Shown here: one piece after another, positions 302 through 21,155 of the stretch
Numbering within the stretch: the stretch's first letter is position 1
Layout: each line of letters opens with the position of its first letter
Virus record (IMG/VR): IMGVR_UViG_3300020159_000975
Span: 1-22,623 of that record
Length of the DNA: 22,623 nt
From: a virus
Strand: one strand, 5' to 3'
The notes under the pieces: generated by a model
Databases searched by the model: none
Seen by the model: only the letters and a program-made list of their open reading frames with translations
What the model was told of the DNA's origin: nothing
Position numbers and translations under genes: made by a program

Positions 302-1705
302 ATGGCTTATGCAATCAAACGCAAAGGGCGATTTACCGCCTATTATCGCCAAGACGGAAAAGTCAAATCCGTAGGCACTTACTCATCTAGGGCTAAAGCA
401 CTTAACGCTGGATTACTTGCCGAAGAAGGCGAGTTTAATCTAATGCCCGAAAACCAAAAGACATTCAACGATTACCTAGCCAAACTTTCGGCGGCGAATG
501 ACATCAGAGTAATCACCCGTAAGAATTACATTACCCTTCTAAAGAAGTATGCCCAACCTTCTTTAGGGTCTAGGCGCATCTCCGCCATAACCAAGAAAGA
601 CATAAAGAACCTGCTGGACAATCTCGCAACTAAAGGGATTAGCCCAAGCACAATCTCACACCTAAAGACTTCTTTAGGTTCTCTGTTCAGGCTCGCCGTT
701 GATGATGACGCAATAGCCACAAACCCCACCCACCGCATAAGACTAAGCACGCCCAAGCCTGACCCCACCTACACCCTAGAGCCTAAAGACTTTCAGGCTA
801 TCTTAAAGAACTTACCCACAGACGGAAGCGTTCTTTTAGCCCAGTTTCTCATAGCCTCTGGTTGCCGATACGGAGAAGCCACAGAACTCAGAGTCAAAGA
901 CTTTAACTTCCAATCCAAAGAGGTCTATGTCAGGCGCACAGTCTCAGATGTAGGCTACGCGTACCAGCCCGCAGGGACAAAGTCCGAGGGGACAAGATTT
1001 CTCATTGTTCCAGCAACCAAGAACGGCAATAAGAGAACTGTTGTTCTTAGCTCAGCTCTAGTAGCAGAGATAAAGAAGTTTGTAAAGGCAAAAGCCCTAG
1101 CAAAAGAAGACCTGCTCTTCTCAAAGCACCTGGTTGAGAAGAGGAGTAAAATAGAAAGCCCTACCACAAGCGTAGTAGGGAAGCCTTACACCATTGGAAG
1201 CAGGACATTCCAACACGCAACAGCGTATTCGTACAATGTGGGCGGTTGTAGGTGTCAGGTATGTAAGGAAGCGGTCAGGGAGTACCGCAATCACTATAGA
1301 AAGGACAAGGGAAAGGGCAAGGTAGAAAGTCTTAGCAAAAGCGATAGCAGAAGCCATAGCGAAAGCCTTAGCAAAAGCGAAAGCCTTAGCAAAAGCCATA
1401 GCAAAAGCCATAGCAAAAGCCATAGCAGAAGCCATAGCAGAAGCCATAGCGAAAGACACCTACCTCGTGACAAGTGGCGAGCCATTTGGAACGAAGCCAT
1501 CAACAAGTCAGGGATTGGTTGGTATCCCACCACTCACGACCTACGGCACGCTAACGCTACTCAGTTGTTAAAGAACGGGGTAGATGTGCACGAGGTTAAA
1601 GAGCGGTTAGGTCACCAGTCAATCGTAACTACGGAGAGATACCTGCATCGTATCCGCCACCAGCAGTCAAACGCAGCCGAGGTTGTGAATGACTATTTGG
1701 AGTGA
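302..1705 (+). CDS. int: Tyrosine recombinase (phage integrase) with inserted Cys-rich module and Ser-X repeat tract
   Basis: Site-specific recombinase that would integrate phage DNA between attP and attB. After a short Lys/Arg-rich N-terminal arm-binding-like region and a SAM-like core-binding domain (about 50-150), the catalytic domain shows ASGCRYGE (Arg189), HDLRH (His412, Arg415), LGHQ (His438) and the nucleophile Tyr447 in TERYLH. At 467 aa it is longer than usual because residues about 280-390 are inserted between box I and box II. The first part holds FQHATAYSYNVGGCRCQVC, the GCRCxxC motif widespread in actinobacteria and their phages. The second part, residues 343-384, is 21 Ser-X dipeptides. 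The frame stays open throughout, so the enzyme may be functional. A GGTAGG sequence lies about 8 bases before ATG. The stop codon overlaps the ribosome-binding region of the next gene. No att core could be recognised. Confidence 0.93.
   Translation: MAYAIKRKGRFTAYYRQDGKVKSVGTYSSRAKALNAGLLAEEGEFNLMPENQKTFNDYLAKLSAANDIRVITRKNYITLLKKYAQPSLGSRRISAITKKDIKNLLDNLATKGISPSTISHLKTSLGSLFRLAVDDDAIATNPTHRIRLSTPKPDPTYTLEPKDFQAILKNLPTDGSVLLAQFLIASGCRYGEATELRVKDFNFQSKEVYVRRTVSDVGYAYQPAGTKSEGTRFLIVPATKNGNKRTVVLSSALVAEIKKFVKAKALAKEDLLFSKHLVEKRSKIESPTTSVVGKPYTIGSRTFQHATAYSYNVGGCRCQVCKEAVREYRNHYRKDKGKGKVESLSKSDSRSHSESLSKSESLSKSHSKSHSKSHSRSHSRSHSERHLPRDKWRAIWNEAINKSGIGWYPTTHDLRHANATQLLKNGVDVHEVKERLGHQSIVTTERYLHRIRHQQSNAAEVVNDYLE
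1328..1453 (+). repeat. AGCNNN hexamer tandem repeat inside integrase (21 units)
   Basis: Twenty-one in-frame hexamers, one AGT-led and twenty AGC-led, in which the second codon is only AAA, CAT, AGA, GAA, CTT or GAT. It encodes (Ser-X)21 with X = Lys, His, Arg, Glu, Leu or Asp, resembling the SR/SK-rich tracts of RNA- or DNA-binding proteins. Some 12-base units (AGCCATAGCAAA, AGCCATAGCAGA) recur exactly, pointing to recent slippage or unequal expansion. The same repeat type recurs at 2234-2280. Confidence 0.95.
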
Positions 1706-2990: not shown

Positions 2991-3080
2991 TTAATCTCTA
3001 CATGAATAACAAATGCCGTCAGAAGATTCTTTTGGAAGTTCTTCAAACTCTTCAAAGCACTTTAAACACTTTATCTTCAT
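2991..3080 (-). CDS. 29-aa zinc-ribbon microprotein coupled to RNR
   Basis: A tiny gene below usual size cut-offs. The ATG overlaps the RNR stop codon by four bases (ATGA), the coupling used elsewhere in this series, and the stop is directly followed by the bidirectional terminator. The protein begins MKIKCLKCFEEFEELP and ends GICYSCRD: two CxxC pairs 16 residues apart, a minimal zinc ribbon, with an acidic middle. Four correctly spaced cysteines in 29 residues are strong evidence for a real product. The role is unknown; it could bind RNA or act on a protein partner, and its position makes the RNR a candidate. It uses the preceding gene's ribosomes rather than a clear Shine-Dalgarno. Confidence 0.7.
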   Translation of the reverse strand: MKIKCLKCFEEFEELPKESSDGICYSCRD

Positions 3081-5194
3081 TGCGTGTCCTTGATTAATTT
3101 GACCTCACAAGCGTCTGTTGTGCAGTAAGCCTCTCCGATAGCATCGGCTGCCATACCTGCATACACGCCTGATAAGTCAATCGGCATTAGATTCATACGA
3201 CCTTCTTCATACTCCTCAGATGTAATCTGTGTGTAAGGCATCTGTGGGTAAGTCATGTTACCCATTGGTAGGAAACTAATCGTCTTTAGCTGACCATCGT
3301 GCATGTGCAAGATAGAAGCAATAGAGTCTGACTCCTTCTCAGGGTCAAAGGTTACGGTTACAGAGACAGAATTATCTGACCAGTAACGCTGTACAACTAC
3401 AGCAAGTGCAACCTTCTCGTGGACTGAAACTTCTTTCTCTGCTCTCTTAGCATTAGTCTCTATTGGGAAGAATACAACGCTTGTCGTTTCTGGAGATTCA
3501 GAGGCTGGTTCAACTCTGTAGTTTGCCATCTTAAATAGCGGAAGCATTGGGTCAGAGTTTGCAAAGCGGATTGCTCTGTTAAAGAACTTACCGCCTGATG
3601 CCCAGTGAACTCCAGGAGATTCACCAGCAAGGATAGACACAGTTCCCGATGGCTTTACTGTAGTCATCTTGATTGACTGACGGATTCCAAGCCACTCAGA
3701 GTAAGACTCGTCATACTTCTTTACGACTTCGTAGCCAGTGTTTAGCCAGTCACGCAATACAGTCCAACCGTTGTTGTCTGCAAAGTTAGCGATACCAGAG
3801 ATTGAAGTTCCAATACGGCGATTACGCTGCATGATTGCATTGGTCTCTTCCCAATGAGTTGGTAGGAGAGTTACAGTCTTGGCATAAAGGTAAGCAAACT
3901 TCAATGTTCTTTTGAAGTCATCAATATCCTCGTGACGATTCAAGTAAGTCTCAACAAGTGTGCAACACTCGTAAGATTCAAGAGACTGCTCAGCGCAAGG
4001 GTTGTACCCAGTAACACGCCAGTCCTTGTTGTTAGGTGGGTCAATCAAGCGACCATACTTGCGTGATACATCCATCCACACAACTCCAGGCTCACCGTTA
4101 CGAACAATGCCGTCAATAATCTTAGAGAAGTCTGAACCGACTTTAGCCTCTACAGAGTTGTTAGACATCCAAGCCCAGCCTGGGTTGGCAGGGTCGTAGG
4201 AGTTACGCTCAGGAAATACATCAGCGTTCTTTAGGTTTAGGAAAGTCTCGTCGTCAATCTGACCGATGAGAAGTTCTGCGCTACGGCGTACATTCCCTGA
4301 AACAACACAAACACCAATCATGTTTCCAATGTCTGCGATGTCAGTCTTAGACAACTTCTCACCAGCACGACCAGCAAACATCTTGCTGATGTGGGTGTGC
4401 AGTCTTAGAAGAGGTTCGTGTCCTGCGGCTGTTCCACCAAAGGTTTTGATTGGTGCACCTGCTGGGCGGATTTCTTCGTAATCAAATACTGGAGTCTTCG
4501 TATCTGGCTTGAGGTAGGAATTGATGAGGGCGGCTGTAGATTCAACCCACCCTTCTCTGGTGTCAGGGATTTTATATTCGTAAGTTTCTTTTGGTTCATA
4601 GATTGTGAAGTCCTTATCTGCTCCCTTGTCATCAAAGCCAACGCCCACTCCGAGCATTGAGGCTTCCATAAGGAAAGCGAATGGTTTTGCTGGGTCTGTC
4701 TTTACCATTGACCCAGTAGATACAAACGCACAGTTCTGCAAAGCAGCAGAGTTGCGTTGCTCATTAACGAGTGGGGTACCCATTACCCATAGTCCACGTC
4801 CAGGTGGAGTCCACTTCAGGTTGAAGAGACGGTCAAATGCTTCTTTAGCCGAGGCTGCTGCTTTAGCGTCAGACCAAGGAAGTCGCTGACGCTTGGCGTG
4901 GTCTTTCTGTAGCGAGTACATACCGTTGATGACACGCTCACATACATCTACCCAAGTCTCCTTAGTACCATCTGCCTTCAGGCGTGAATAGGTACGGAGA
5001 AAAGTGATTTCTCCAACTGAGTTTCCAGCGGCATCCCTATACCCAAAAGGAGCCTTCTTGTCCTTGTACGAAGCGACGAAGTCATTTGTTAATTCAAAAG
5101 AAAACAGACCCAATTCCTTACCACCATTTCTATGTTTGTGTAAATACCCCTCAACAGGGAGACCTATTGTGCCGTGGCGAAACCTACCACGCAC
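3077..5194 (-). CDS. nrdJ: Adenosylcobalamin-dependent (class II) ribonucleotide reductase
   Basis: Reduces ribonucleotides to deoxyribonucleotides with a B12 cofactor, so it needs no oxygen-dependent partner subunit. The sequence follows the monomeric Lactobacillus RTPR type: LRTYSR near the N-terminus, TPPGRGLWVMGT, a redox cysteine in LQNCAF (about 155), NPCAEQSLESYECC (about 397-410) with the thiyl-radical Cys and second redox Cys, VKPSGTVSILAG, and a C-terminal shuttle pair CTTDAC (691/696). About 705 aa is normal. The start is uncertain: GTG 5194 lacks a clear Shine-Dalgarno, and an in-frame TTG at 5113 preceded by GGTGG would give MGLFSFELTNDF, closer to where relatives appear to begin. 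It follows the TGT-like gene after an 81-base gap holding two palindromes, and overlaps the zinc microprotein gene. It supplies dNTPs for phage replication; host B12 supply would limit it. Confidence 0.95.
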   Translation of the reverse strand: MRGRFRHGTIGLPVEGYLHKHRNGGKELGLFSFELTNDFVASYKDKKAPFGYRDAAGNSVGEITFLRTYSRLKADGTKETWVDVCERVINGMYSLQKDHAKRQRLPWSDAKAAASAKEAFDRLFNLKWTPPGRGLWVMGTPLVNEQRNSAALQNCAFVSTGSMVKTDPAKPFAFLMEASMLGVGVGFDDKGADKDFTIYEPKETYEYKIPDTREGWVESTAALINSYLKPDTKTPVFDYEEIRPAGAPIKTFGGTAAGHEPLLRLHTHISKMFAGRAGEKLSKTDIADIGNMIGVCVVSGNVRRSAELLIGQIDDETFLNLKNADVFPERNSYDPANPGWAWMSNNSVEAKVGSDFSKIIDGIVRNGEPGVVWMDVSRKYGRLIDPPNNKDWRVTGYNPCAEQSLESYECCTLVETYLNRHEDIDDFKRTLKFAYLYAKTVTLLPTHWEETNAIMQRNRRIGTSISGIANFADNNGWTVLRDWLNTGYEVVKKYDESYSEWLGIRQSIKMTTVKPSGTVSILAGESPGVHWASGGKFFNRAIRFANSDPMLPLFKMANYRVEPASESPETTSVVFFPIETNAKRAEKEVSVHEKVALAVVVQRYWSDNSVSVTVTFDPEKESDSIASILHMHDGQLKTISFLPMGNMTYPQMPYTQITSEEYEEGRMNLMPIDLSGVYAGMAADAIGEAYCTTDACEVKLIKDTQ

Positions 5195-5275: not shown

Positions 5276-6781
5276 TTAATCTTCTATTGAAGACTGAATA
5301 ATTTTGGTTACGGTATCTTCTTTTAGCGTCTCAGGTAACTCTCTCAGAGCTTGAGCTTTGTCTCCGAAGATAGCCGAGAGCACTCCACCCGAACCTTGAC
5401 GCTGAGCTGTAATCTGAATGAACTCTTTATCCGATGCCATATCGTTAACTTCTTTAACCATTTTGATAAGGCGGTCAACTTCCTGAGACACGTTAGGGTC
5501 TGCATATCCGCCATTCATTTCTTCAGCAAAACGCATAAAAGCAACTCTTTGACCCTGCATTTCAATCATTGAAGTCATTAAAGCCTTGAGTTGGTCTTTG
5601 GTCTTTACTTCAATTGGCAGGTTAAAAGCACAGGTGTTCTGTGGCTTGAAGGCTGGACAGTTGGCAGCTACAAAGCAAGTATCACATTGCCTTAAAGAAG
5701 TTTGTTGGGTTTGTACGACTGGGATGTCCATCAAGACGTCTTTGCCGTTGTCATCTGTTTCAACCACGGTCTTCATCTTGTACCCAAAAACAGGTAGGTT
5801 CTGTACCTCTGAAGGGTCTCTTTGGACTACTTCTTGGCGCTCAAGTTTCCGCATCTCGGTGGTACTGTTATCAGAAAGTACCCCCCCTAGTTCCATCAAA
5901 CCACTCATGAGTGGGGTGTCACTGTTATCAGATACTTTACCTTCTTTACCACCATCAATGATGTGGAAGTTAGGTGTTTTCTTGTCCATTGATGCCTCTA
6001 ACTGTAGGTATGACCAGACCGCAACTCTAGTCGCTTCAAGGGTGTTATCTTGGCTAAACCCCAAATAGTCTAACCCTGCCTTCTCCACAATGCGCTTGTA
6101 GCGAGGGCGTGCTTGGTCTTTCATACGCTTTGGGTAGCGCTTAATTTGGGCGCCATCCCACACGATTGTTTCGCCTCTACGCATTGGTGAAAGCCACGAC
6201 AATGTGCTGGCAGTGCTAAATGGTACCTGTCGGATGTTGTCTGGTTTGGCGCAGGCTAGGGCGTGGTACTGAGTCCCAAACTGCCTCTGATAGCCCCGTG
6301 TGAGGGCTGCTAGGCTGGTTACAGACTCAATCTCGTCGTTGGGTATAACTACGTTCTGGTAGGTCTGAGACATCAGTTTGAGGGATGGGAGACCGTACTC
6401 TTCGTGCCAGACTACCCAAAACTTTGGGTCGTGCTCGTAGAAAGGGCGTTGGGCTTCTACCCATTCCTTGCCCAGAACCATAGAGTCAAACTCCATAAAA
6501 GCTGTTGCTCTCTCAGAGTTATCCACAAGGAACTCTTGGTAATCAGCGGCTAAAGAAGTTAGTTCTTCTTTTGACAACCCTGCTTTGTCAGCTTGAGCTG
6601 CACCAGACTCAATGAATACCTGGGTGTCTGCGTCAAAGTGCTCGCTAATTAACCATCTTTTGGTGGTAGGCAAACCTCTTTTGCGTAAAGTCCAAAAGTT
6701 GAGTCCCATTGACTCAACCTTTGAGCCAAAAAGAAGATTGCGATTGGAGCCTACTTCAGCCCCGCTAAAGATGACACGCAT
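5276..6781 (-). CDS. TGT/DpdA-like TIM-barrel protein with C-terminal Cys cluster
   Basis: 501 aa. Residues 1-260 resemble the phage branch of tRNA-guanine transglycosylase-like proteins that includes DpdA, which swap a base in DNA or tRNA: VIFSGAE at the N-terminus, VFIESGAAQA (equivalent to the DSGAF strand), MEFDSMVLG, FWVVWHEEYG (equivalent to PVFH), QYHALACAKPDN, and FSTASTLSWL (equivalent to YSVDSTSW). The acids expected in the two key motifs are Glu58 and Ala191, so catalysis may differ. After a variable linker a CxxC-x5-C-x8-C cluster (366, 369, 375, 384) could bind zinc or Fe-S, followed by a helical region. The start is the ATG at 6781 in TGATG with the HAD gene; an upstream TTG is less likely. 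No preQ0 genes (folE, queC/D/E) are in view. Homology is judged by eye; an unrelated TIM-barrel role is possible. Confidence 0.5.
   Translation of the reverse strand: MRVIFSGAEVGSNRNLLFGSKVESMGLNFWTLRKRGLPTTKRWLISEHFDADTQVFIESGAAQADKAGLSKEELTSLAADYQEFLVDNSERATAFMEFDSMVLGKEWVEAQRPFYEHDPKFWVVWHEEYGLPSLKLMSQTYQNVVIPNDEIESVTSLAALTRGYQRQFGTQYHALACAKPDNIRQVPFSTASTLSWLSPMRRGETIVWDGAQIKRYPKRMKDQARPRYKRIVEKAGLDYLGFSQDNTLEATRVAVWSYLQLEASMDKKTPNFHIIDGGKEGKVSDNSDTPLMSGLMELGGVLSDNSTTEMRKLERQEVVQRDPSEVQNLPVFGYKMKTVVETDDNGKDVLMDIPVVQTQQTSLRQCDTCFVAANCPAFKPQNTCAFNLPIEVKTKDQLKALMTSMIEMQGQRVAFMRFAEEMNGGYADPNVSQEVDRLIKMVKEVNDMASDKEFIQITAQRQGSGGVLSAIFGDKAQALRELPETLKEDTVTKIIQSSIED
5864..5875. repeat. ACTGTTATCAGA repeat, copy 2 of 3
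   Basis: Inside the TGT-like gene, encoding part of VLSDNST on the minus strand. It matches copies 1 and 3 over 12 bases. Confidence 0.45.
5921..5934. repeat. ACTGTTATCAGATA repeat, copy 3 of 3
   Basis: Inside the TGT-like gene, encoding part of KVSDNSD on the minus strand. It matches the intergenic copy at 5261-5274 over 14 bases. Confidence 0.45.
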
Positions 6782-7275
6782 CAATCAGACCAGAGTTCAG
6801 CCACTGTATCTTTTGGTCTTTGTGCTTGCTCTGAGCGGGCGATGTTTACTTTGTTAATAGACTCTTCAATGTCCGACCAGCGTCGTACCTTCTTTGGGGC
6901 ATCTGGTCGGTTCTCAACTGATGCAAAATTAGGGTGGCTAAAGAGGACTGCTGGGACTCTTTGTTCTGTAAAAACCCAGGCACACATTGTTGGGTCAGAA
7001 TCTACATACATCTCAATCGGAGCTCTGGAACGAGAGATAGTGAACTGTCTCTTCTTTAGGTCCTCACCTGCCAGCTCAAAAGAAGAATCAATTAGGTCGT
7101 CGTAGTTAATGATTCCGTGCGACTGTAACCATTGCTTAGCGTCTGCTTCTTTGCGAGAAGTCATGATTGCAACACGGTTATTGATATTTAGGGCGTAGTA
7201 AAGCGCCACTCCTGCACGGATTGGTTCTCCAGAATCCGAGCTTAGTACGCCGTCTAGTGATACGAGTATGTTCAT
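6781..7275 (-). CDS. HAD-superfamily-like protein, catalytic Asp apparently missing
   Basis: 164 aa with the layout of a small HAD phosphatase or nucleotidase: MNILVSLDGVLSSDSGEP at the N-terminus, a motif II-like VAIMTSR (about 34-41), and a motif III/IV-like region at about 87-94 (IEMYVDSDPTMC) followed by VPAVLFSHPNF. In active HAD enzymes the first strand reads hhhDxD; here it is VSLDGVL, so the nucleophile position is Ser10 and only the second Asp12 remains. The fold may be kept for binding rather than hydrolysis, or another acid may serve. It starts directly after the nucleotidyltransferase stop (no gap) with AAAGGG upstream, and its TGA overlaps the next ATG by one base, so the three genes are almost certainly co-translated. 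A role in nucleotide or base-modification chemistry is inference from context. Confidence 0.6.
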   Translation of the reverse strand: MNILVSLDGVLSSDSGEPIRAGVALYYALNINNRVAIMTSRKEADAKQWLQSHGIINYDDLIDSSFELAGEDLKKRQFTISRSRAPIEMYVDSDPTMCAWVFTEQRVPAVLFSHPNFASVENRPDAPKKVRRWSDIEESINKVNIARSEQAQRPKDTVAELWSD

Positions 7276-8208
7276 TTATCCCTTTGCTCGGTATGTTGCT
7301 GCTCTTCTAATTAGGGTCTGAGTATCTGGCAGGTCAATGCCGTAAGTTTCATCTGCTTGTTGTGCTTTGTATGCTGACCAGTACTCAGACATCTTTCGTA
7401 GGGCAGGTATGGTTCCGTACTTCTTTCCAGCCTGCCATCTATAGTTGTAAAAATCTGCATAGCCTTCACCTTCTGTACGGAAGGCAAACTTGCGTGCTCC
7501 GTGAATGTCTTCGTACATTGCTGAGCCCTGGGTAAGAGCTGCGTGTAGGCGTGCCTCTGCGTTACGACGTGCTGGGTCGTTCTGTGCCCCCTGCACATCA
7601 GTTAGTGCCTTGGTGTAGCGTGTAACAATTTCTGTTGCCTTTGCCAAGTCACGTTTTGCAAACTCATCCCATACACGGTTCTCTGGTGCGGTGGTTTGTT
7701 CAGGATGCACTGTCCACTCGTTGTGGGTTAAATCGTAGGCTGCGTAAGGGTTGATGGTGCGAATATCAGTAGCACCTGGGTTTACGTAGAAAGTGACTTC
7801 GTAGCCGTTCCAGTCTTGTGTTTGTGGTTGTAGGTGATTGCGGAAGTCTTCGTTCAACATACGACTAATCTCTACATCACCAAGACCAGTAAACTCTGGG
7901 TGTGCTCTACGGAACTGAATGTAGTTAACCCCAATAAGGACATCTAAATCTCCAGGCTGACGTGCTGCTGACCATTGGTATGAAACTCCAGAGCCTGCAA
8001 TCCACACGTGTGCCCATAGGTTTGGGTTACGGTACTTCTCGTTTAAGAACCCAAAAAGAAGATGAAGGATTCCATTACGAACCCATCCCTTTAAAGTTTT
8101 TTCTGAGAATAACTTGGGGTCTAACTCTGTTTCAGGGGCAGAAAAATAGGAAGTAGCAGTTCCCTGAATGTGTACAGGGCTTGAGTTACTTCCTAAGTTC
8201 TTAAACAT
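7276..8208 (-). CDS. Nucleotidyltransferase-fold protein
   Basis: 310 aa. Residues 68-94 (HVWIAGSG, then GDLDVLIGV) carry the signature of the pol-beta-type nucleotidyltransferase superfamily: a GSG turn (72-74) and the metal-binding pair Asp87/Asp89. A third acid would be expected on a nearby strand; Glu137 in GYEVTFYVN is a candidate. The C-terminal half is helical with TRYTKALTDVQGA and RKMSEYWSAYK segments and may bind substrate. Such enzymes add nucleotides to RNA, proteins, small molecules or antibiotics; the target cannot be named. It is first in the compact nucleotidyltransferase / HAD-like / TGT-like set. AAGG sits just before the ATG. Confidence 0.65.
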   Translation of the reverse strand: MFKNLGSNSSPVHIQGTATSYFSAPETELDPKLFSEKTLKGWVRNGILHLLFGFLNEKYRNPNLWAHVWIAGSGVSYQWSAARQPGDLDVLIGVNYIQFRRAHPEFTGLGDVEISRMLNEDFRNHLQPQTQDWNGYEVTFYVNPGATDIRTINPYAAYDLTHNEWTVHPEQTTAPENRVWDEFAKRDLAKATEIVTRYTKALTDVQGAQNDPARRNAEARLHAALTQGSAMYEDIHGARKFAFRTEGEGYADFYNYRWQAGKKYGTIPALRKMSEYWSAYKAQQADETYGIDLPDTQTLIRRAATYRAKG

Positions 8209-9100: not shown

Positions 9101-9328
9101 TTACTTGCTTTTACGCTTTTGCATCCGATTAAATTGGTTTTTATTTGGGTCACGAGGTGGCGTGTTTCCAGAGGCAGCGGCTTTCTTTACTGGTTTCTGC
9201 GGATTTCTGTTACTTTCAAAGAAAGCACGGTTTTTTGCTTTTCCCCCAGCACGTCGGTCGTTAAATAAGTTGTGAGGTTGGTTACGTTCAAATTCACCAG
9301 GGTCTGGTGCACCCACAGCGGTTTTCAT
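9101..9328 (-). CDS. Small basic hypothetical protein
   Basis: About 75 aa, rich in Asn, Lys, Arg and Pro, with no Cys or hydrophobic segment; mostly disordered in appearance (NPQKPVKKAAASGNTPPRDP, ending MQKRKSK). The ATG at 9328 overlaps the preceding stop as TAATG, a junction used repeatedly here; an in-frame GTG at 9340 with AAGGG upstream is the alternative and adds four residues. First of the small-protein block from the left, last to be transcribed. Function unknown; charge suggests nucleic-acid or capsid-interior binding. Confidence 0.65.
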   Translation of the reverse strand: MKTAVGAPDPGEFERNQPHNLFNDRRAGGKAKNRAFFESNRNPQKPVKKAAASGNTPPRDPNKNQFNRMQKRKSK

Positions 9329-9720
9329 TATTGATTCCACAACCCTTGCTCTGCTGAGTCAGCCTTTGCTTTGCGCTTTTCTGCACGACGTTCCATCGTC
9401 TTTTCACGCTCACTCTTAACACCGATTGCACGGCGAGTAACTGCTTGTTTTTGTGCAGTAGTTGGACTGTGATAAACATCTGGGTAATGCCAGCCACCTT
9501 CGTGGTGTACAGCCAAAGGTGTGTTAGAACGTGGGTCGTTGACTGTGTAGTCAATGTTCTTTAAACCCTTTAATGCTTCTGAGAACTGAGTTCCAGATAA
9601 CCAACCGTGTGAGCGGGGTGCTCCTGGGTGGCCTTCAAAGTTGTTGCCTTTAAAAGGTACACGCTCTGCAATGTATGGGCCAGCATTTTTGTTAGAAGTT
9701 CTGTACATCATCTTAGCCAT
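9328..9720 (-). CDS. Small hypothetical protein, 130 aa
   Basis: N-terminal half has aromatic and glycine-rich stretches (GPYIAERVPFKGNNFEGHPG, HGWLSGTQF, HHEGGWHYPDVYHSPT) and looks folded; the last 40 residues are a highly charged Arg/Lys/Glu helix (SEREKTMERRAEKRKAKAD) likely to form a coiled coil or bind nucleic acid. The ATG lies two bases after the previous stop in TAATCATGG, with AAGGAAAG inside the end of the upstream gene as ribosome-binding site. No family recognised. Confidence 0.7.
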   Translation of the reverse strand: MAKMMYRTSNKNAGPYIAERVPFKGNNFEGHPGAPRSHGWLSGTQFSEALKGLKNIDYTVNDPRSNTPLAVHHEGGWHYPDVYHSPTTAQKQAVTRRAIGVKSEREKTMERRAEKRKAKADSAEQGLWNQ

Positions 9721-9722
9721 GA

Positions 9723-9941
9723 TTACTTCTTTCCTTTAGGGTAAGTGCGTGTTGCATACAACGAGGTTGAACCGTTTACTTTTTTTGGAGTTTTGCGCTC
9801 TTCATTGTGACGTTCTGCTGTGCAACCTTCTTTTGCTACACACATGTCAAAAACAGGCCCGTAGTTATCTCCGCCCACGGAGTACCACTCGTGCTTGTGT
9901 TTAGGCACGGAGGCTTTAGACCTACGGTCATTAAACTCCAT
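9723..9941 (-). CDS. Small Cys/His zinc-binding-like protein, 72 aa
   Basis: The core reads KHKHEWYSVGGDNYGPVFDM followed by CVAKEGCTAERH. The pattern H-x-H...C-x5-C-x4-H gives a plausible single zinc site, followed by a basic tail ending TYPKGKK. Such H..C..C..H miniproteins are frequent in actinophages but uncharacterised. It is joined to its neighbours on both sides by TAATCATGG junctions with two-base gaps. Likely a nucleic-acid or protein-binding adaptor; no specific function can be claimed. Confidence 0.7.
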   Translation of the reverse strand: MEFNDRRSKASVPKHKHEWYSVGGDNYGPVFDMCVAKEGCTAERHNEERKTPKKVNGSTSLYATRTYPKGKK

Positions 9942-9953
9942 GATTACTTACCT
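9938..9953. repeat. 16-base gene-junction repeat, copy 1
   Basis: CCATGATTACTTACCT here is identical to 10147-10162; a shorter CCATGATTACTT recurs at 9717-9728. On the coding strand it reads AGGTAAGTAATCATGG: ribosome-binding site, stop codon and next start in one block. Confidence 0.75.
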
Positions 9954-10150
9954 GGGTTTACCTGGTTTGGAAACTCAGATGTAATGAAACCATAACCGTA
10001 AAAAGGGTGAAGTGACTGACGGTTATCAAGCGTTGCTTCGTCACCATTACCAGGAATTACCTCTGTGTCTGGGCGAGCTTTGCGATACTTACCATCTGTT
10101 GCACCGCTGTTTAGTGATGCGTTCATTGAGCGTGATGAGTTAACAGCCAT
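9944..10150 (-). CDS. Small hypothetical protein, 68 aa
   Basis: No recognised domain. The sequence has Ser/Asn-rich ends (MAVNSSRSMNASLNSGATDG) and a short aromatic patch (HPFYGYGFITSEFPNQV) near the C-terminus. Neutral, no Cys, no membrane segment. Support comes from its exact fit in the series: two-base gaps to both neighbours, both with the same TAATCATGG junction and an AGGTAAG ribosome-binding sequence overlapping the preceding stop codon. Confidence 0.65.
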   Translation of the reverse strand: MAVNSSRSMNASLNSGATDGKYRKARPDTEVIPGNGDEATLDNRQSLHPFYGYGFITSEFPNQVNPGK

Positions 10151-10162
10151 GATTACTTACCT
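10147..10162. repeat. 16-base gene-junction repeat, copy 2
   Basis: Identical to 9938-9953 over 16 bases and placed in the same way between stop and start codons of neighbouring small genes, implying that these junctions arose by duplication or are kept for coupled translation. Confidence 0.75.
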
Positions 10163-10575
10163 TGCTTTCTTTTTGCTGCCGCTTTTTTCATTTGAGCGTT
10201 AAACTTCTCGCCTGATTTTTTGCTGTAAGAGTCTGCCCAAGCTTGGCCTTTCTTAAGGCGTGCTTCTTTCTTTGAACCACGTTCTGCTTGAACTGTTTTA
10301 CCAACTTGCATTGAGCCACCAAATAAACGTGTCATTGGCTTGTTAACTTTAAATTGTGCATCTGAATTAGCAGCTTTAAGCCCGCGCTTATTTGCCTTTG
10401 CTTCTTTTTTAGAGATAGGGGCTTCTGCATCTCTGTTTTCTTTACGTGCTTGACGTGCGCCCTTTAGAGACTTGCTATCTAATGGCTTACCATCAGGGGA
10501 TTTAACAGTGACGTTCTCACTTACTTTGTATGACTTGCGGTCTGCACTCATACCTGGTTTTGGGTTGTTTGCCAT
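10153..10575 (-). CDS. Small highly basic hypothetical protein, 140 aa
   Basis: Very rich in Lys, Arg and Ala with few aromatic residues (DRKSYKVSENVTVKSPDGKP near the start; MKKAAAKRKQGK at the end). No Cys, signal or membrane segment. The composition is like histone-tail or DNA-compacting proteins, but also like ribosomal-protein-type low-complexity sequence, and no family is recognised. The ATG overlaps the upstream stop by one base (TAATG). It may bind phage DNA or RNA; this is inference from charge only. Confidence 0.7.
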   Translation of the reverse strand: MANNPKPGMSADRKSYKVSENVTVKSPDGKPLDSKSLKGARQARKENRDAEAPISKKEAKANKRGLKAANSDAQFKVNKPMTRLFGGSMQVGKTVQAERGSKKEARLKKGQAWADSYSKKSGEKFNAQMKKAAAKRKQGK

Positions 10576-17433: not shown

Positions 17434-17751
17434 TTAAGCATCCTTTAGACGGTCCCTCATCTCTAGAAAGTCGTCTTCAAGAAGAATCACGTAATTCTCC
17501 CCATCTAAATGAACGCCCAGTACTGGCATACGTCCATCAAGGATGGCCTCTGTCGTTATTTTTTTCAACACCTCTGACTTTACAGAAAAAGATTTCTTCC
17601 CCGTAAACTTGTGCTCAATCAAGAGGTCGCTTGACCGAACATCTCCCTTGTGGGACCAAAACGCTCCAGATGCAGCCATAGTTTTACCGCCAATTTTCTT
17701 AGCAAGTCTTTTTTCGTGCTTCTGGGATTGTTTTTGTCCTTCAGTCTTCAT
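17434..17751 (-). CDS. PD-(D/E)XK endonuclease, Holliday-junction-resolvase-like
   Basis: 105 aa. The pattern is that of a minimal archaeal-Hjc/RecB-type nuclease: an N-terminal Glu in a basic helix (QKHEKRLAKKIGGKTMA), SGAFWSHKGDVRSSDLLIEH with the catalytic Asp and the Glu-x-Lys pair (IEHK), then basic FTGKKSFSVKSEVLKKI and a VLGVHLDGENYVILLEDDF strand pair. It would cut junctions or branched DNA, or act as a nicking enzyme. The ATG at 17751 overlaps the recA stop by 11 bases; a longer frame to 17898 runs deep inside recA and is not credible. Possibly coupled to recA. It is a second junction nuclease in addition to the RuvC-like gene. Confidence 0.75.
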   Translation of the reverse strand: MKTEGQKQSQKHEKRLAKKIGGKTMAASGAFWSHKGDVRSSDLLIEHKFTGKKSFSVKSEVLKKITTEAILDGRMPVLGVHLDGENYVILLEDDFLEMRDRLKDA

Positions 17752-18787
17752 CAATTGCCAATGGTGCTGCATCTGATGAAAGTACCGCTGTTTGTATTGC
17801 TTCTTTAAGGTCAACTTCTTCGCGGATGCTTGCAATGACGGACTCAATGCCCTGCCACTTACGCTCACCGTGATAGAACCAACCACCTTTGCGTTCAATA
17901 ACGCCCATAATTACACCTAGAGAGGCGATTTCTTTAGCGAAATCAAACTCCCCAGGTTCACAGGCACCACCTGGTGCAAAGTAGAAATCAAAGTATGCAA
18001 CACGCTGTGGTGGTGCAGTTTTATTTTTTAATGTACGGACAACAATTTGCTGTCCTACTCGTACCTTGTTTGTTCCTGAACCAATTTCAATCCATTCCTT
18101 ACGGCGTACTTCGCAACGAGTAAAGAACGCATAGTTCTTTCCTTCTCCTCCAGGAGTTGTGCGAGGGTCACCGTGCATAACACCAATCTTCATTCGGTAC
18201 TGGTTGATAATCAACCCAAGCACAGGACGCTCATCCTCGGTTAGGGAACGCTTCATTGCTGTACCAACTACACGGAAAAACTTGTTCGTAAGTAGTGCGC
18301 CACGACCAACGGTTGCCTCACTCATATCCTTTTCCATTTCTGGCATTGGAGAGAGTGCTGGAAGTGAGTCAATAACAATTGCATCTACTGATTTAGATTC
18401 TGCAAACTCAATGACTGCTTGGTATGCCTCTTCCATAATAGAGGTTTCAATAACAATAACGCGAGACGTGTCTACTCCACACATTGCTGCATACTCTGGT
18501 ACCCACTGCTCAGCAGCAACCCAAACGGTTGTGTAATCAGGGTTTAATGCTTGATTCGCCGCAATAGTCTTAAGAGCGAGAGCTGTCTTGCCGTGCGACG
18601 GTTCCCCAATGAGTTCGTTCCATTGATTGCCAGGGAAACCACCGCCCAATACAAAATCAAGGGTAGTAGAGCCACTAGTAATACGAGGGATGATATCACT
18701 ACGAATATCTGACGCCATAACAACAACGTCGCCTTTAAACTTTTTGTTAAGTTGTGCAATAAGTTTGCGTGCTTCAGCATTTATCAA
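17741..18787 (-). CDS. recA: RecA-like recombinase
   Basis: 348 aa strand-exchange ATPase. Walker A is GEPSHGKT (61-68) after ITSGSTTLDFVLGGGFPGNQ; Walker B is DAIVIDSLPAL (Asp140). Later regions (EATVGRGALLTNKFFRVVGT; VLGLIINQYRMKIG; then GDPRTTPGG) correspond to the DNA-binding loops and the conserved Gln/Asn sensor. It looks like the phage-specific RecA branch rather than a bacterial copy. The start is TTG at 18787, overlapping the preceding stop (TTGA), with GGGAG eight bases upstream; an ATG at residue 24 is possible but would trim the N-terminus. Works with the SSB, Cas4-like nuclease and junction nucleases. The acidic tail (AIDED) is overlapped by the next gene. Confidence 0.93.
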   Translation of the reverse strand: MINAEARKLIAQLNKKFKGDVVVMASDIRSDIIPRITSGSTTLDFVLGGGFPGNQWNELIGEPSHGKTALALKTIAANQALNPDYTTVWVAAEQWVPEYAAMCGVDTSRVIVIETSIMEEAYQAVIEFAESKSVDAIVIDSLPALSPMPEMEKDMSEATVGRGALLTNKFFRVVGTAMKRSLTEDERPVLGLIINQYRMKIGVMHGDPRTTPGGEGKNYAFFTRCEVRRKEWIEIGSGTNKVRVGQQIVVRTLKNKTAPPQRVAYFDFYFAPGGACEPGEFDFAKEIASLGVIMGVIERKGGWFYHGERKWQGIESVIASIREEVDLKEAIQTAVLSSDAAPLAIDED

Positions 18788-19158
18788 TTTACTCTCCCAA
18801 TAATTCCCTGTGGATTCCAGTTACTTTGAACATCATTACCTTGCGCAGATTTTGCACTGCCTTCAACCTTAGCTCCAGTCAACGAGCCGTAACGACTGCC
18901 TGCCTGTGTTATTGGGTACCCACAGTCATAACACCTTGCTGCAGCGTTCTGCACTGCCATGTAGTTGTTGCCACCGCACTCAGGACAAGACTGAGTTTGA
19001 CTGGCGCTTTGTGCTTTAGAAAGCGGTTGAGTGTATGCGGGTTGTGGCATTGGAGCCATAGGCTGTTGTGACGGTGGCATTGGTACGTCTGCAGGACGTG
19101 CAACTGGCTGTGCGGGTTGCGCACCAAGTTGTTTAGCCCACCAATCAGCATTACTCAT
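18784..19158 (-). CDS. Pro/Gln-rich protein with C-terminal-half zinc ribbon
   Basis: 124 aa. Residues 1-55 are a Pro/Gln/Ala-rich flexible arm (PPSQQPMAPMPQPAYTQPL) after a short Trp-containing head (MSNADWWAKQLG). Residues about 58-80 form a zinc ribbon, CPECGGNNYM and RCYDCGYP. The tail is polar and ends near WNPQGIIGRVN. It overlaps polymerase (ATGA) and recA (TTGA) by four bases each, so it is made together with both. A flexible arm plus ribbon suggests an adaptor within the replication complex, for instance binding SSB or polymerase; no experimental relative is known to me. Confidence 0.75.
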   Translation of the reverse strand: MSNADWWAKQLGAQPAQPVARPADVPMPPSQQPMAPMPQPAYTQPLSKAQSASQTQSCPECGGNNYMAVQNAAARCYDCGYPITQAGSRYGSLTGAKVEGSAKSAQGNDVQSNWNPQGIIGRVN

Positions 19159-21155
19159 TTAGCTTCTCCCCACTTGTCTACAATCTTTACATCAGCAATA
19201 AGTGGAACAGTAATCTCTGGAAGGTTAATGCCTTCCATAGATAGACGAATTGCTTCGGCTGTTTCTTCTGCTAAATCTTCACGAGCAACTGTAACGAGTT
19301 CATCGTGTACCGTCAACACCACATTAACATCTGGCTCATCTACAAAACAAGAGTGGGCTCTAACAATGGCAAGTTTCATCAAATCTGCTGCAGAACCCTG
19401 AATAACAGTGTTAAATGCTTGTCGGTCTGCTCTACTGCGGAGTCCTTTATCTGTGGACTTTAAGTCAGGGATGTAACGACGACGACCGAAGACCGTCTCC
19501 ACAAAAGGAGTTGGAGATTGTTGACTGGCTAATCGTGTGACTTTTGCTTTGTACTTAGCAATGTCGTTAAACCTATCTGTAAAATCATTCAGAAGTTTTC
19601 TTGCTGCTTCCACGGTTAAGTTAAGAGAAGAGGCAATCTTGTCAGGCCCTACACCGTAGGTCATTGCTAGAACTAATACTTTACCTGCTTTACGGTCAAG
19701 TCCAACGGTATCGCCAATGGTTGTGTAGATGTCTTTACCGTTTAAATAGTTGTCCATCATAATCGGGTCGTTAGAAAACGACGCAACAATTCTTGGTTCA
19801 ATCTGAGAGTAATCAGCAACTACTAACTTATAACCTTTAGGTGCTACAAAGAGATTACGAATCAACTTTCCATACTGACCACTGCTTGGAATGTTTTGTA
19901 GGTTTGGGTCACTACTGGAGAAACGACCTGTCTCTGCTCCGTGTGATTTGAAACTTGTGTGTACTTTGCCGTTAATTAAAAGCGATTTCTTTTCAAGAAT
20001 GCGTGACTTACCCGCATTAGTACGAACAATGTCTCCGCCTAAGTACGGCATTACGTATGTAGTCATAAGCTTATTTAAATCTTGATACTCAAGAATAGCG
20101 TCAACCAACTCATCCTTGGCGCGGTAAAACTCTAATGCGTCTGATGAAACAGAGTACTGGTTAATAGTTAACGGTAACCTTGCGGCTAACATATCTTGAC
20201 CTTTAGTAGTTAATGCAATCTTAATCTTGATATTGGGCGTAATGCCGCGACCACCTTCTTCTTTAGGTGAGAACAATATCTTTTGTTTTTCTTGTACAGA
20301 GTTCATAGGAAATGGTTTACCTGCAAGCCTGTATGCACGAGCAACTGCTGCATCAATATCTACATCAAGTCGTTTTTTTAAATTAGTTAGCTCTTCAACA
20401 TCAACGGTTGCTCCAGCCAACTCCATGTCACATAGGGCGCCAACAATATCCATCTCTAATCCCCATACACGAGCAAGGCTTCCAGTTAATCTAGGGGCTA
20501 ACTCTTTATACAACTTCCAGGTAACCTCAGAGTCAAACCCTGAGTAGTGTGCTACCTCTGAAAAGGAATGGACCTCAACCATTGCGCCAATACCTTTTTC
20601 AACTTTAATCTTTAGGTACTTTTCAGCACAGTCTTTTAGCCCTAGCTTTCCACGATTACGGTTATCAATAACAAACGCAGCCATCAAAGTATCAAAGAAA
20701 GGCTTCTTCGGTACTACGCCTCGGTAATACTTAGCAATTGATTTAAGGTCAAACTTAATGTTATGACCAACCTTTAACTGGTCACTAAAGAACAAGGGCT
20801 TCAATGCTTTAAACACATCTCCTGGCAATAACTGCTCTGGTGGCGCATCAAATACTGGCGTCCACTTAGCTTGATTCTTTGAGTAGTCTGTTTCTTTTAG
20901 CTCTTTACCTGCAGCAACTTTCTTTTGACCACTTAAAAGTAATTCTTTATCCCACTGTAAGAAGTCTCCGTTAGGGTGACCCATAGGGATTACATCTGTA
21001 CGACCATCAGTAGCAAGTGATAGCCACAACACATCATTAACAACGGGTTGGATTCTATTTTCTCCAACTGTTTCTACGTCAAATGCAAAACCATTTACCT
21101 TGGAGTAAAACTCAACAAGTTCTTGAAGTTGTTTCTTGGTTGTAATTATATTCAT
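19155..21155 (-). CDS. polA: DNA polymerase I (family A) with 3'-5' exonuclease
   Basis: 666 aa replicative polymerase. The N-terminal DEDDy proofreading domain shows GFAFDVETVG (Asp26, Glu28), VGHNIKFDLKSI and HYSGFDSEVTWKL. The polymerase domain has TGRFSSSDPNLQNIP, motif A (VVADYSQIEPRIVASF), motif B (RKAGKVLVLAMTYGVG, O-helix, Lys then Tyr) and motif C (LTVHDELV, about 617). There is no 5'-3' nuclease domain, as usual for phage polymerases. The O-helix carries LAMTYG at the position of the Phe/Tyr that discriminates sugars. GAGGGG stands seven bases before the ATG. A strong 14-bp hairpin lies 22 bases upstream of the start. It overlaps the zinc-ribbon gene by four bases. Confidence 0.97.
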   Translation of the reverse strand: MNIITTKKQLQELVEFYSKVNGFAFDVETVGENRIQPVVNDVLWLSLATDGRTDVIPMGHPNGDFLQWDKELLLSGQKKVAAGKELKETDYSKNQAKWTPVFDAPPEQLLPGDVFKALKPLFFSDQLKVGHNIKFDLKSIAKYYRGVVPKKPFFDTLMAAFVIDNRNRGKLGLKDCAEKYLKIKVEKGIGAMVEVHSFSEVAHYSGFDSEVTWKLYKELAPRLTGSLARVWGLEMDIVGALCDMELAGATVDVEELTNLKKRLDVDIDAAVARAYRLAGKPFPMNSVQEKQKILFSPKEEGGRGITPNIKIKIALTTKGQDMLAARLPLTINQYSVSSDALEFYRAKDELVDAILEYQDLNKLMTTYVMPYLGGDIVRTNAGKSRILEKKSLLINGKVHTSFKSHGAETGRFSSSDPNLQNIPSSGQYGKLIRNLFVAPKGYKLVVADYSQIEPRIVASFSNDPIMMDNYLNGKDIYTTIGDTVGLDRKAGKVLVLAMTYGVGPDKIASSLNLTVEAARKLLNDFTDRFNDIAKYKAKVTRLASQQSPTPFVETVFGRRRYIPDLKSTDKGLRSRADRQAFNTVIQGSAADLMKLAIVRAHSCFVDEPDVNVVLTVHDELVTVAREDLAEETAEAIRLSMEGINLPEITVPLIADVKIVDKWGEAK

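Follow-up and report, generated by a model that had tools for sequence, protein, structure and literature searches.

Organization and conservation of the gene block

The DNA analyzed here is the 22,623-base (22.6 kb) virus record IMGVR_UViG_3300020159_000975 of IMG/VR, which we refer to in full as the window. Its minus strand carries a block of genes (Table 1) coding for a nucleotidyltransferase (NTase)-like protein, a HAD-like protein, and a protein of 501 amino acids (aa) that resembles the tRNA-guanine transglycosylases (TGTs) and the phage protein DpdA. The 501-aa protein is the main subject of this work, and it appears to join a TGT-type barrel lacking the usual catalytic Asp to a C-terminal module found also in annotated small terminases of actinobacterial phages. 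An earlier reading of these letters, made without database searches (the sequence-only reading), had described three open reading frames here, joined with no gap and a one-base overlap, and we confirmed this layout: the stop codon of the NTase gene directly abuts the ATG of the HAD-like gene (a zero-base junction), and the HAD-like stop codon and the TGT-like ATG overlap by one base (TGATG).

We collected IMG/VR loci and three Streptomyces phages with a total of 135 distinct TGT-like genes (distinct by a 300-base mid-gene stretch), and neighbors were counted only at loci with enough flank. The scans took the best 80 matches each, which biases the sample to closer relatives, and the counts are of nonindependent events. 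The HAD-like gene lies upstream of the TGT-like gene in 111 of 111 loci and the NTase gene in 93 of 94 (all but L162); seen from the other side, the TGT-like gene follows downstream of the NTase gene in 113 of 113. The linkage of the block is real and strongly conserved, not a matter of chance. The sequence-only reading had hung on the genes co-occurring in related phages and on the 501-aa protein not belonging to an unrelated family; the genes do co-occur, and the protein has its relatives among TGTs and DpdA, as described below. The trio that it called a cassette is real, although it missed both the terminase-like C-terminal module and a fourth member of the block, a Cys-rich protein of 182 aa encoded two genes upstream of the NTase gene, which is as conserved as the trio (89 of 89). 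The gene for this Cys-rich protein is present in Streptomyces phages and prophages too. The same reading had the block leading into the ribonucleotide reductase (RNR) gene. This is true in the window, where the class II RNR gene starts at position 5194, 81 nucleotides beyond the 501-aa gene, but it is not fixed across relatives, as RNR was found downstream in 111 of 120 loci and is missing from nine (the Streptomyces phages L001 to L003, plus L159, L162, L177, L185, L204, and L224).

Among GenBank phages, relatives of all three proteins are found together in five Streptomyces phages, each 112 to 116 kb in size (BRock, with two records, Alone3, LuckySocke, GiJojo, and pSt2308), and one extra gene separates the HAD-like and TGT-like genes in the three of them that were opened. 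At the Streptomyces phage loci, a low-complexity protein with a conserved C terminus is encoded between these two genes (L002, 6790-7956; L001, 7008-7838; L003, 7196-7954). Extra genes inside the block were also seen in some other relatives (L031, 6646-7503; L048, 6472-7503; L024, 6977-7513; L120, 9425-10144); their products, read from translations, are low-complexity, secreted nuclease-like, and methyltransferase-like proteins, and these genes look like unrelated insertions. Judging from the named relatives, the hosts of the IMG/VR contigs are probably actinobacterial.

Relatives were also found in five bacterial contigs, one from Terracoccus and four from Streptomyces, with the NTase present in four of the five genomes, namely, those of Streptomyces. 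In these four, two separate parts of the TGT-like protein are matched, and the stretch between them is not. Two of the Streptomyces copies were read by eye, and in both a serine recombinase adjoins the end of the block; the genes neighboring the Streptomyces copies, read from translations, are RNR-like, RecA-like, LysM-like, and HNH-like. We considered the chromosomal copies as satellites or defense islands and dropped this idea, as the neighborhood resembles the end of large prophages.

TABLE 1 Features of the window, with coordinates in window positions
Feature	Position	Strand	Remarks
Phage integrase	302-1705	+	Near the left end; Pfam Phage_integrase, 2.4e-22
Class II RNR	3077-5194	-	Frequent, not fixed, downstream neighbor (111/120)
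TGT-like protein, 501 aa	5276-6781	-	From ATG; 502 aa if the TTG at 6784 is used
HAD-like protein, 164 aa	6781-7275	-	Assigned by motif only; first Asp of DxD replaced by Ser
NTase-like protein, 310 aa	7276-8208	-	Predicted nucleotidyltransferase; GS...DxD...E motif only
Small variable protein, 95 aa	8228-8515	-	Between the Cys-rich and NTase genes; about 37-97% identity among the matches listed
Cys-rich protein, 182 aa	8515-9063	-	Fourth conserved block member; conserved upstream (89/89)
Run of small, very basic proteins	9101-10575	-	Upstream of the block; without known family
RecA	17741-18787		
Family A DNA polymerase	19155-21155		

Elsewhere in the window, the integrase gene is followed by a lysozyme-like (SLT_3) gene, so the phage may be temperate. 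The genes for RecA and family A DNA polymerase place the block among replication genes here. No tRNA gene was found in the window.

The barrel, its active site, and the partner proteins

The 501-aa protein is organized as a degenerate TGT/DpdA-type barrel (about residues 1 to 265), a disordered linker (about 268 to 330), and a C-terminal module with a CxxCx5Cx8C motif at 366 to 384 followed by two long helices (395 to 422 and 429 to 450). The sequence-only reading of this protein as a TGT-like TIM barrel was borne out: PHROG_887, named queuine tRNA-ribosyltransferase, matches it nearly end to end (1.2e-58), and against four phage DpdA proteins the N-terminal profile of the family scores 2.9e-16. 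In the AlphaFold model the barrel is well supported up to about residue 265 (ten-residue mean pLDDT of 68 to 94, mostly above 80), the linker is disordered, and the C-terminal part is weaker. TGTs make up all 50 of the best solved-structure rows for residues 1 to 274 of the model (Z of 16.3 to 17.1, with 254 to 271 residues aligned), in a ranking obtained by a second-look structural alignment over Foldseek's own candidates. The model thus indicates a TGT-type TIM barrel, the fold of the TGT/DpdA superfamily, in the N terminus of the protein. Pfam, NCBIfam, PADLOC, and PDB sequence searches of the block proteins gave no usable match, and HMMER filters can miss weak matches.

The window protein was aligned with 130 distinct relatives, each 420 aa or longer (131 members, distinctness being computed slightly differently from that of the 135 genes above), and with the DpdA proteins of four phages with preQ0 genes as controls. 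As in TGTs, we take the Asp of the DpdA motif SVDSxSW to be the nucleophile and the DSG Asp to be its catalytic partner. At the nucleophile position all four controls have Asp, whereas the 131 members have Ser (124), Thr (4), or Ala (3) and never Asp. At the DSG position, Glu predominates (102 members, including the window), followed by Asp (19), His (6), Ser (3), and a gap in one member. Glu97, His173, and the four Cys are strictly kept in 131 of 131, and Asp99 is kept in 123; the strict conservation of the first six looks like selection and not decay.

QueC had no match in any of 12 related records, which may be fragments and in which QueD, QueE, and FolE were not searched, in contrast to the three of three phage records with an intact DpdA motif that do match QueC. 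The earlier statement that no preQ0 gene is nearby therefore holds as far as QueC is concerned. Supply of preQ0 by the host is possible. In the reading developed below, the 501-aa protein would be a pseudoenzyme that does not carry out the ordinary base exchange of TGT or DpdA.

The partner proteins differ in how well their motifs have survived. In the NTase, Gly72, Ser73, Asp87, Asp89, and Glu137 are invariant (five columns) in 115 of 115 members, 13 short fragments having been excluded. The NTase alignment (A4) holds 26 of 52 representatives plus the window; nine rows were removed from it without individual tests, and the count of 115, which includes these nine, shows the same motif. The two other alignments, A1 and A2, hold 37 of 43 and 37 of 47 representatives, respectively, each plus the window. 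The NTase of the window has no Pfam match; among its family members the only one is a weak match to DUF6932 (6 of 27 members, best E value of 0.011), and a comparison with PDB sequences gave no meaningful match (the best, at 0.11, was a zinc-finger protein). Its GS...DxD...third acid motif predicts a nucleotidyltransferase of the pol-beta type. Both Asp of the DxD motif of the HAD-like protein are present in just 6 of 120 members (four short fragments excluded), and 38 members of the family gave no meaningful Pfam match. The HAD phosphatase motif is missing from the window protein, and the family is, by its sequence, degenerate in most relatives. The suggestion that the three proteins act in base or nucleotide chemistry is thus upheld by the intact NTase motif and undercut by the loss of the catalytic Asp in both the TGT-like and the HAD-like proteins.

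The C-terminal module and the small terminases

When 113 residues of the module were used as a query, annotated small terminases were reached weakly (E values of 0.2 to 0.3), and the BRock query reached more of them (Rhodococcus phage Mbo2, 2e-2). Running hmmscan with small terminases against PHROG_887 gave matches for Tsukamurella phage TIN4 (7.1e-4), Woes (5.7e-3), and Mbo2 (0.055), all on the module part. The comparison of the module with small-terminase C termini by hhalign gave an E value of 1.6e-8 over 141 columns, the best of 100 column shuffles being 0.013, and with the Cys segment removed it still gave 6.7e-4 over 100 columns, compared with 0.0047 for the best of 100 shuffles. These profiles had been enriched with two gut-phage modules on one side and with more terminases on the other (19 rows, nine of which are IMG/VR copies and relatives of phages already included), and this enlargement was chosen after a first, nonsignificant result was known. 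ReqiDocB7 was left out of the terminase profile, as the Cys motif is in neither of its two products.

A gene of this kind immediately precedes TerL, the large terminase gene, in all 11 actinophages opened (Mbo2, TIN4, Woes, Reynauld, Orchid, GMA3, Demosthenes, ReqiDocB7, Gmala1, Jumbo, and Trogglehumper). They were chosen from match lists, the last eight for diversity, and include phages of Gordonia, Rhodococcus, and Tsukamurella. In ReqiDocB7 the gene in the small-terminase slot is annotated as two genes, and in Trogglehumper a lone module of 199 aa remains. The NTase profile matched only BRock among 16 records and none of these 11 phages, so the role of the NTase would be particular to the clade with the TGT/HAD/NTase block.

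The Woes type, the sole terminase type modeled, was predicted from nine sequences (alignment A5) with a mean pLDDT of 63, the barrel blocks reaching 61 to 90. TGTs were again 50 of the 50 best rows for about residues 6 to 265 of this model, with Z of 10.3 to 10.8, compared to the best Z of 7 to 8 that is typical of the tool when there is no clear match. In a viral library, its matches were the terminase small subunit of Gordonia phage Jumbo and unnamed or uncharacterized phage proteins, followed by queuine ribosyltransferases (1.2e-4 and 1.5e-4), and the matches of the window model include the same Jumbo "Terminase small subunit" (5.4e-6). According to these models, the window protein and the Woes-type terminase share one plan, with a TGT-type barrel, a linker, and a Cys/helix module in that order.

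We also looked for another small terminase in phages that carry the block. Ten GiJojo proteins around TerL matched no small-terminase family, in record G009 the pair of genes immediately preceding TerL matches only families of unknown function, and no small terminase is annotated in GiJojo among the features up to base 108,490. According to its announcement, BRock is a myovirus whose direct terminal repeat measures 221 bp.

On this evidence we give about even credence to the idea that, in the 501-aa protein, a DpdA-type barrel that is catalytically dead has been put to new use in recognizing DNA, in the manner of a small terminase. The best-supported mechanism is recognition of DNA with no exchange of bases, and packaging is most likely the stage at which it would act. 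We infer that the protein binds DNA, takes part in packaging, and works together with the NTase and the HAD remnant: the barrel would grip the phage DNA without exchanging bases, and the helical C-terminal module would oligomerize and pass the DNA to the packaging motor. The NTase, with its motif intact, could act jointly with the 501-aa protein, perhaps in end processing or repair. For the HAD remnant, a part as structural partner is probable.

Several observations weigh against this proposal. The TGT-like gene is not beside TerL. Under the assumption that the records, which may be fragments, can be read as circles (distance counted round the record ends), the two are about 30 to 42 kb apart: TerL lies downstream on the same strand at about 30 to 39 kb in six IMG/VR contigs of 95 to 100 kb (G001 to G006), BRock, and GiJojo and at about 42 kb in G010. 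When the small-terminase profile PHROG_6902 was searched against six records in full, the TGT-like gene was its sole match in four of them (3.8e-4 to 6.6e-3); it missed the other two and matched 3 of 14 control genomes at E values of at most 1, and three of the four matches are close relatives. PHROG_16015 matched none of 12 records at that threshold, and no control genome either. The earlier, smaller hhalign profiles without the Cys segment did no better than shuffles (0.036, with 30 shuffles going down to 0.0017). Likeness to the Woes-type proteins in the N-terminal sequence is marginal (0.014 to 0.03), and a global N-terminal comparison failed (0.62). Barrels are common, and 846 of 1,000 chains aligned reach a Z of 8 with the window model, TGT rows leading, as do 190 of 1,000 with the Woes-type model; in a plain Foldseek search of the PDB, the top matches of the window model are generic TIM barrels (about 2e-3). 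The Streptomyces prophage copies lack the four Cys and keep the helical end (two aligned). Last, the name "terminase small subunit" in actinophages rests on gene position and similarity; in the part of PMC4524720 consulted, some Gordonia phages have their small terminase named by its place upstream of TerL, with similarity support in some.

The gut phages are a further point against it. Bacteroides phage BS162P1, gut phage MT835482, and two IMG/VR contigs each have a DpdA with an intact motif and, directly after it, a separate module gene. TerL lies about 50 kb off in BS162P1 and MT835482, so the module does not go with the terminase slot in every phage. All four contigs have a QueE-like gene behind the module (read from translation), and three have QueC in front of DpdA, the fourth (L310) starting too near the gene to tell. 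BS162P1 DpdA as a query found two contigs; the gut-phage module alone as a query gave no confirmed relative. The DpdA gene of MT835482 (L257, 4518-6716) carries an apparent intein right after the catalytic SSDS motif. From these sequences, the pairing of barrel and module may be older than the terminase slot or the catalytic loss, or may have formed more than once. More tentatively still, and at somewhat less than even credence, we suggest that a TGT/DpdA barrel lost its chemistry and became the small-terminase DNA-recognition domain of many actinobacterial phages, with one branch located before TerL and the other moved into a block with a motif-intact NTase, and with the catalytic DpdA and separate module of the gut phages as the ancestral state; base modification and genome packaging would then be linked in evolution.

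Two alternatives deserve discussion. The first, which we consider unlikely, is that the protein is still an enzyme and that this diverged TGT/DpdA-like protein and the NTase modify phage DNA without the usual Asp nucleophile. Conservation of Glu97, His173, and Asp99 and of the NTase motif would be expected of it, gut phages pair the same module with an intact-motif DpdA beside preQ0 genes, and Salmonella phage 7-11, with DpdA alone, has a little dADG in its DNA (PMC6884629, in the part consulted). This has to be set against a nucleophile Asp absent from every member, a DSG Asp kept in just 19 of 130, the lack of a QueC match, and a degenerate HAD-like partner. The second, also rather improbable in our view, is a four-gene DNA-binding complex with a nonterminase function, such as replication, end protection, anti-restriction, or late gene regulation. 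The architecture common to the proteins in the terminase-small-subunit slot argues against such a complex, as does the failure to find another small-terminase candidate near TerL in GiJojo and G009, whereas the conserved four-gene block, its location away from TerL, the lack of the NTase in the 11 terminase-slot phages, and the serine recombinase beside the block in two Streptomyces prophages would all fit it.

That the protein modifies tRNA of the host or the phage, as the annotation "queuine tRNA-ribosyltransferase" implies, is very unlikely: the TGT fold and the many tRNA genes of GiJojo speak for it, and against it stand the lost catalytic Asp, the clear profile match to phage DpdA, the lack of a QueC match, and the window's lack of tRNA genes. 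It is just as hard to credit that the module likeness is a convergent zinc-knuckle/helix resemblance in a diverged DpdA with no packaging link, since, although much of the sequence signal lies in the Cys segment and was lost without it in the smaller profiles, the helical part alone went beyond 100 of 100 shuffles in the richer ones, the N-terminal domains share the TGT fold, and four Cys kept in every member do not resemble decay.

Comparison with known systems

What we describe is a large family of DpdA-like proteins without the catalytic Asp whose plan is common to annotated small terminases. If the small-terminase-like role is true, the label "queuine tRNA-ribosyltransferase" on such genes is misleading, a new fold joins the small-terminase repertoire, and the BRock-like Streptomyces phages, which are culturable, gain a testable small-terminase candidate. 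A literature search by title and abstract start, with few subscription journals covered, returned nothing linking a small terminase with TGT, DpdA, a TIM barrel, or queuine, and the parts of PMC7824862 and PMC8651126 consulted describe no link between small terminases and TGT or DpdA.

The N-terminal barrel resembles that of phage DpdA, the 7-deazaguanine DNA transglycosylase (Hutinet et al. 2019, PMC6884629), in its PHROG_887 and DpdA profile matches and its TGT fold. Unlike DpdA, the family lacks the nucleophile Asp, mostly has Glu in place of the DSG Asp, shows no QueC match, and has an extra C-terminal module. As far as the consulted part of that work goes, 76 phages have DpdA with no precursor genes, phage Orion has no modification and phage 7-11 a little dADG, and the functional divergence of these singleton DpdA proteins is left open. 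The singletons, the third group of that study, resemble our family in having a DpdA-like gene without precursor genes.

The QueC-DpdA-module-QueE cassette of BS162P1 and the gut-phage contigs likewise encodes a DpdA-type barrel and a Cys/helix module together, but as two genes, with the catalytic Asp motif intact and QueC present. The small terminases of Gordonia, Tsukamurella, and Rhodococcus phages (PHROG_6902 and PHROG_16015) differ in being encoded directly upstream of TerL, whereas the 501-aa gene shares its block with the genes for the NTase, HAD-like, and Cys-rich proteins. Their N-terminal sequences are barely similar to that of the 501-aa protein. Their C-terminal module appears to be homologous to that of the 501-aa protein, and the Woes type also has the same order of parts, with a predicted TGT-fold barrel in front.

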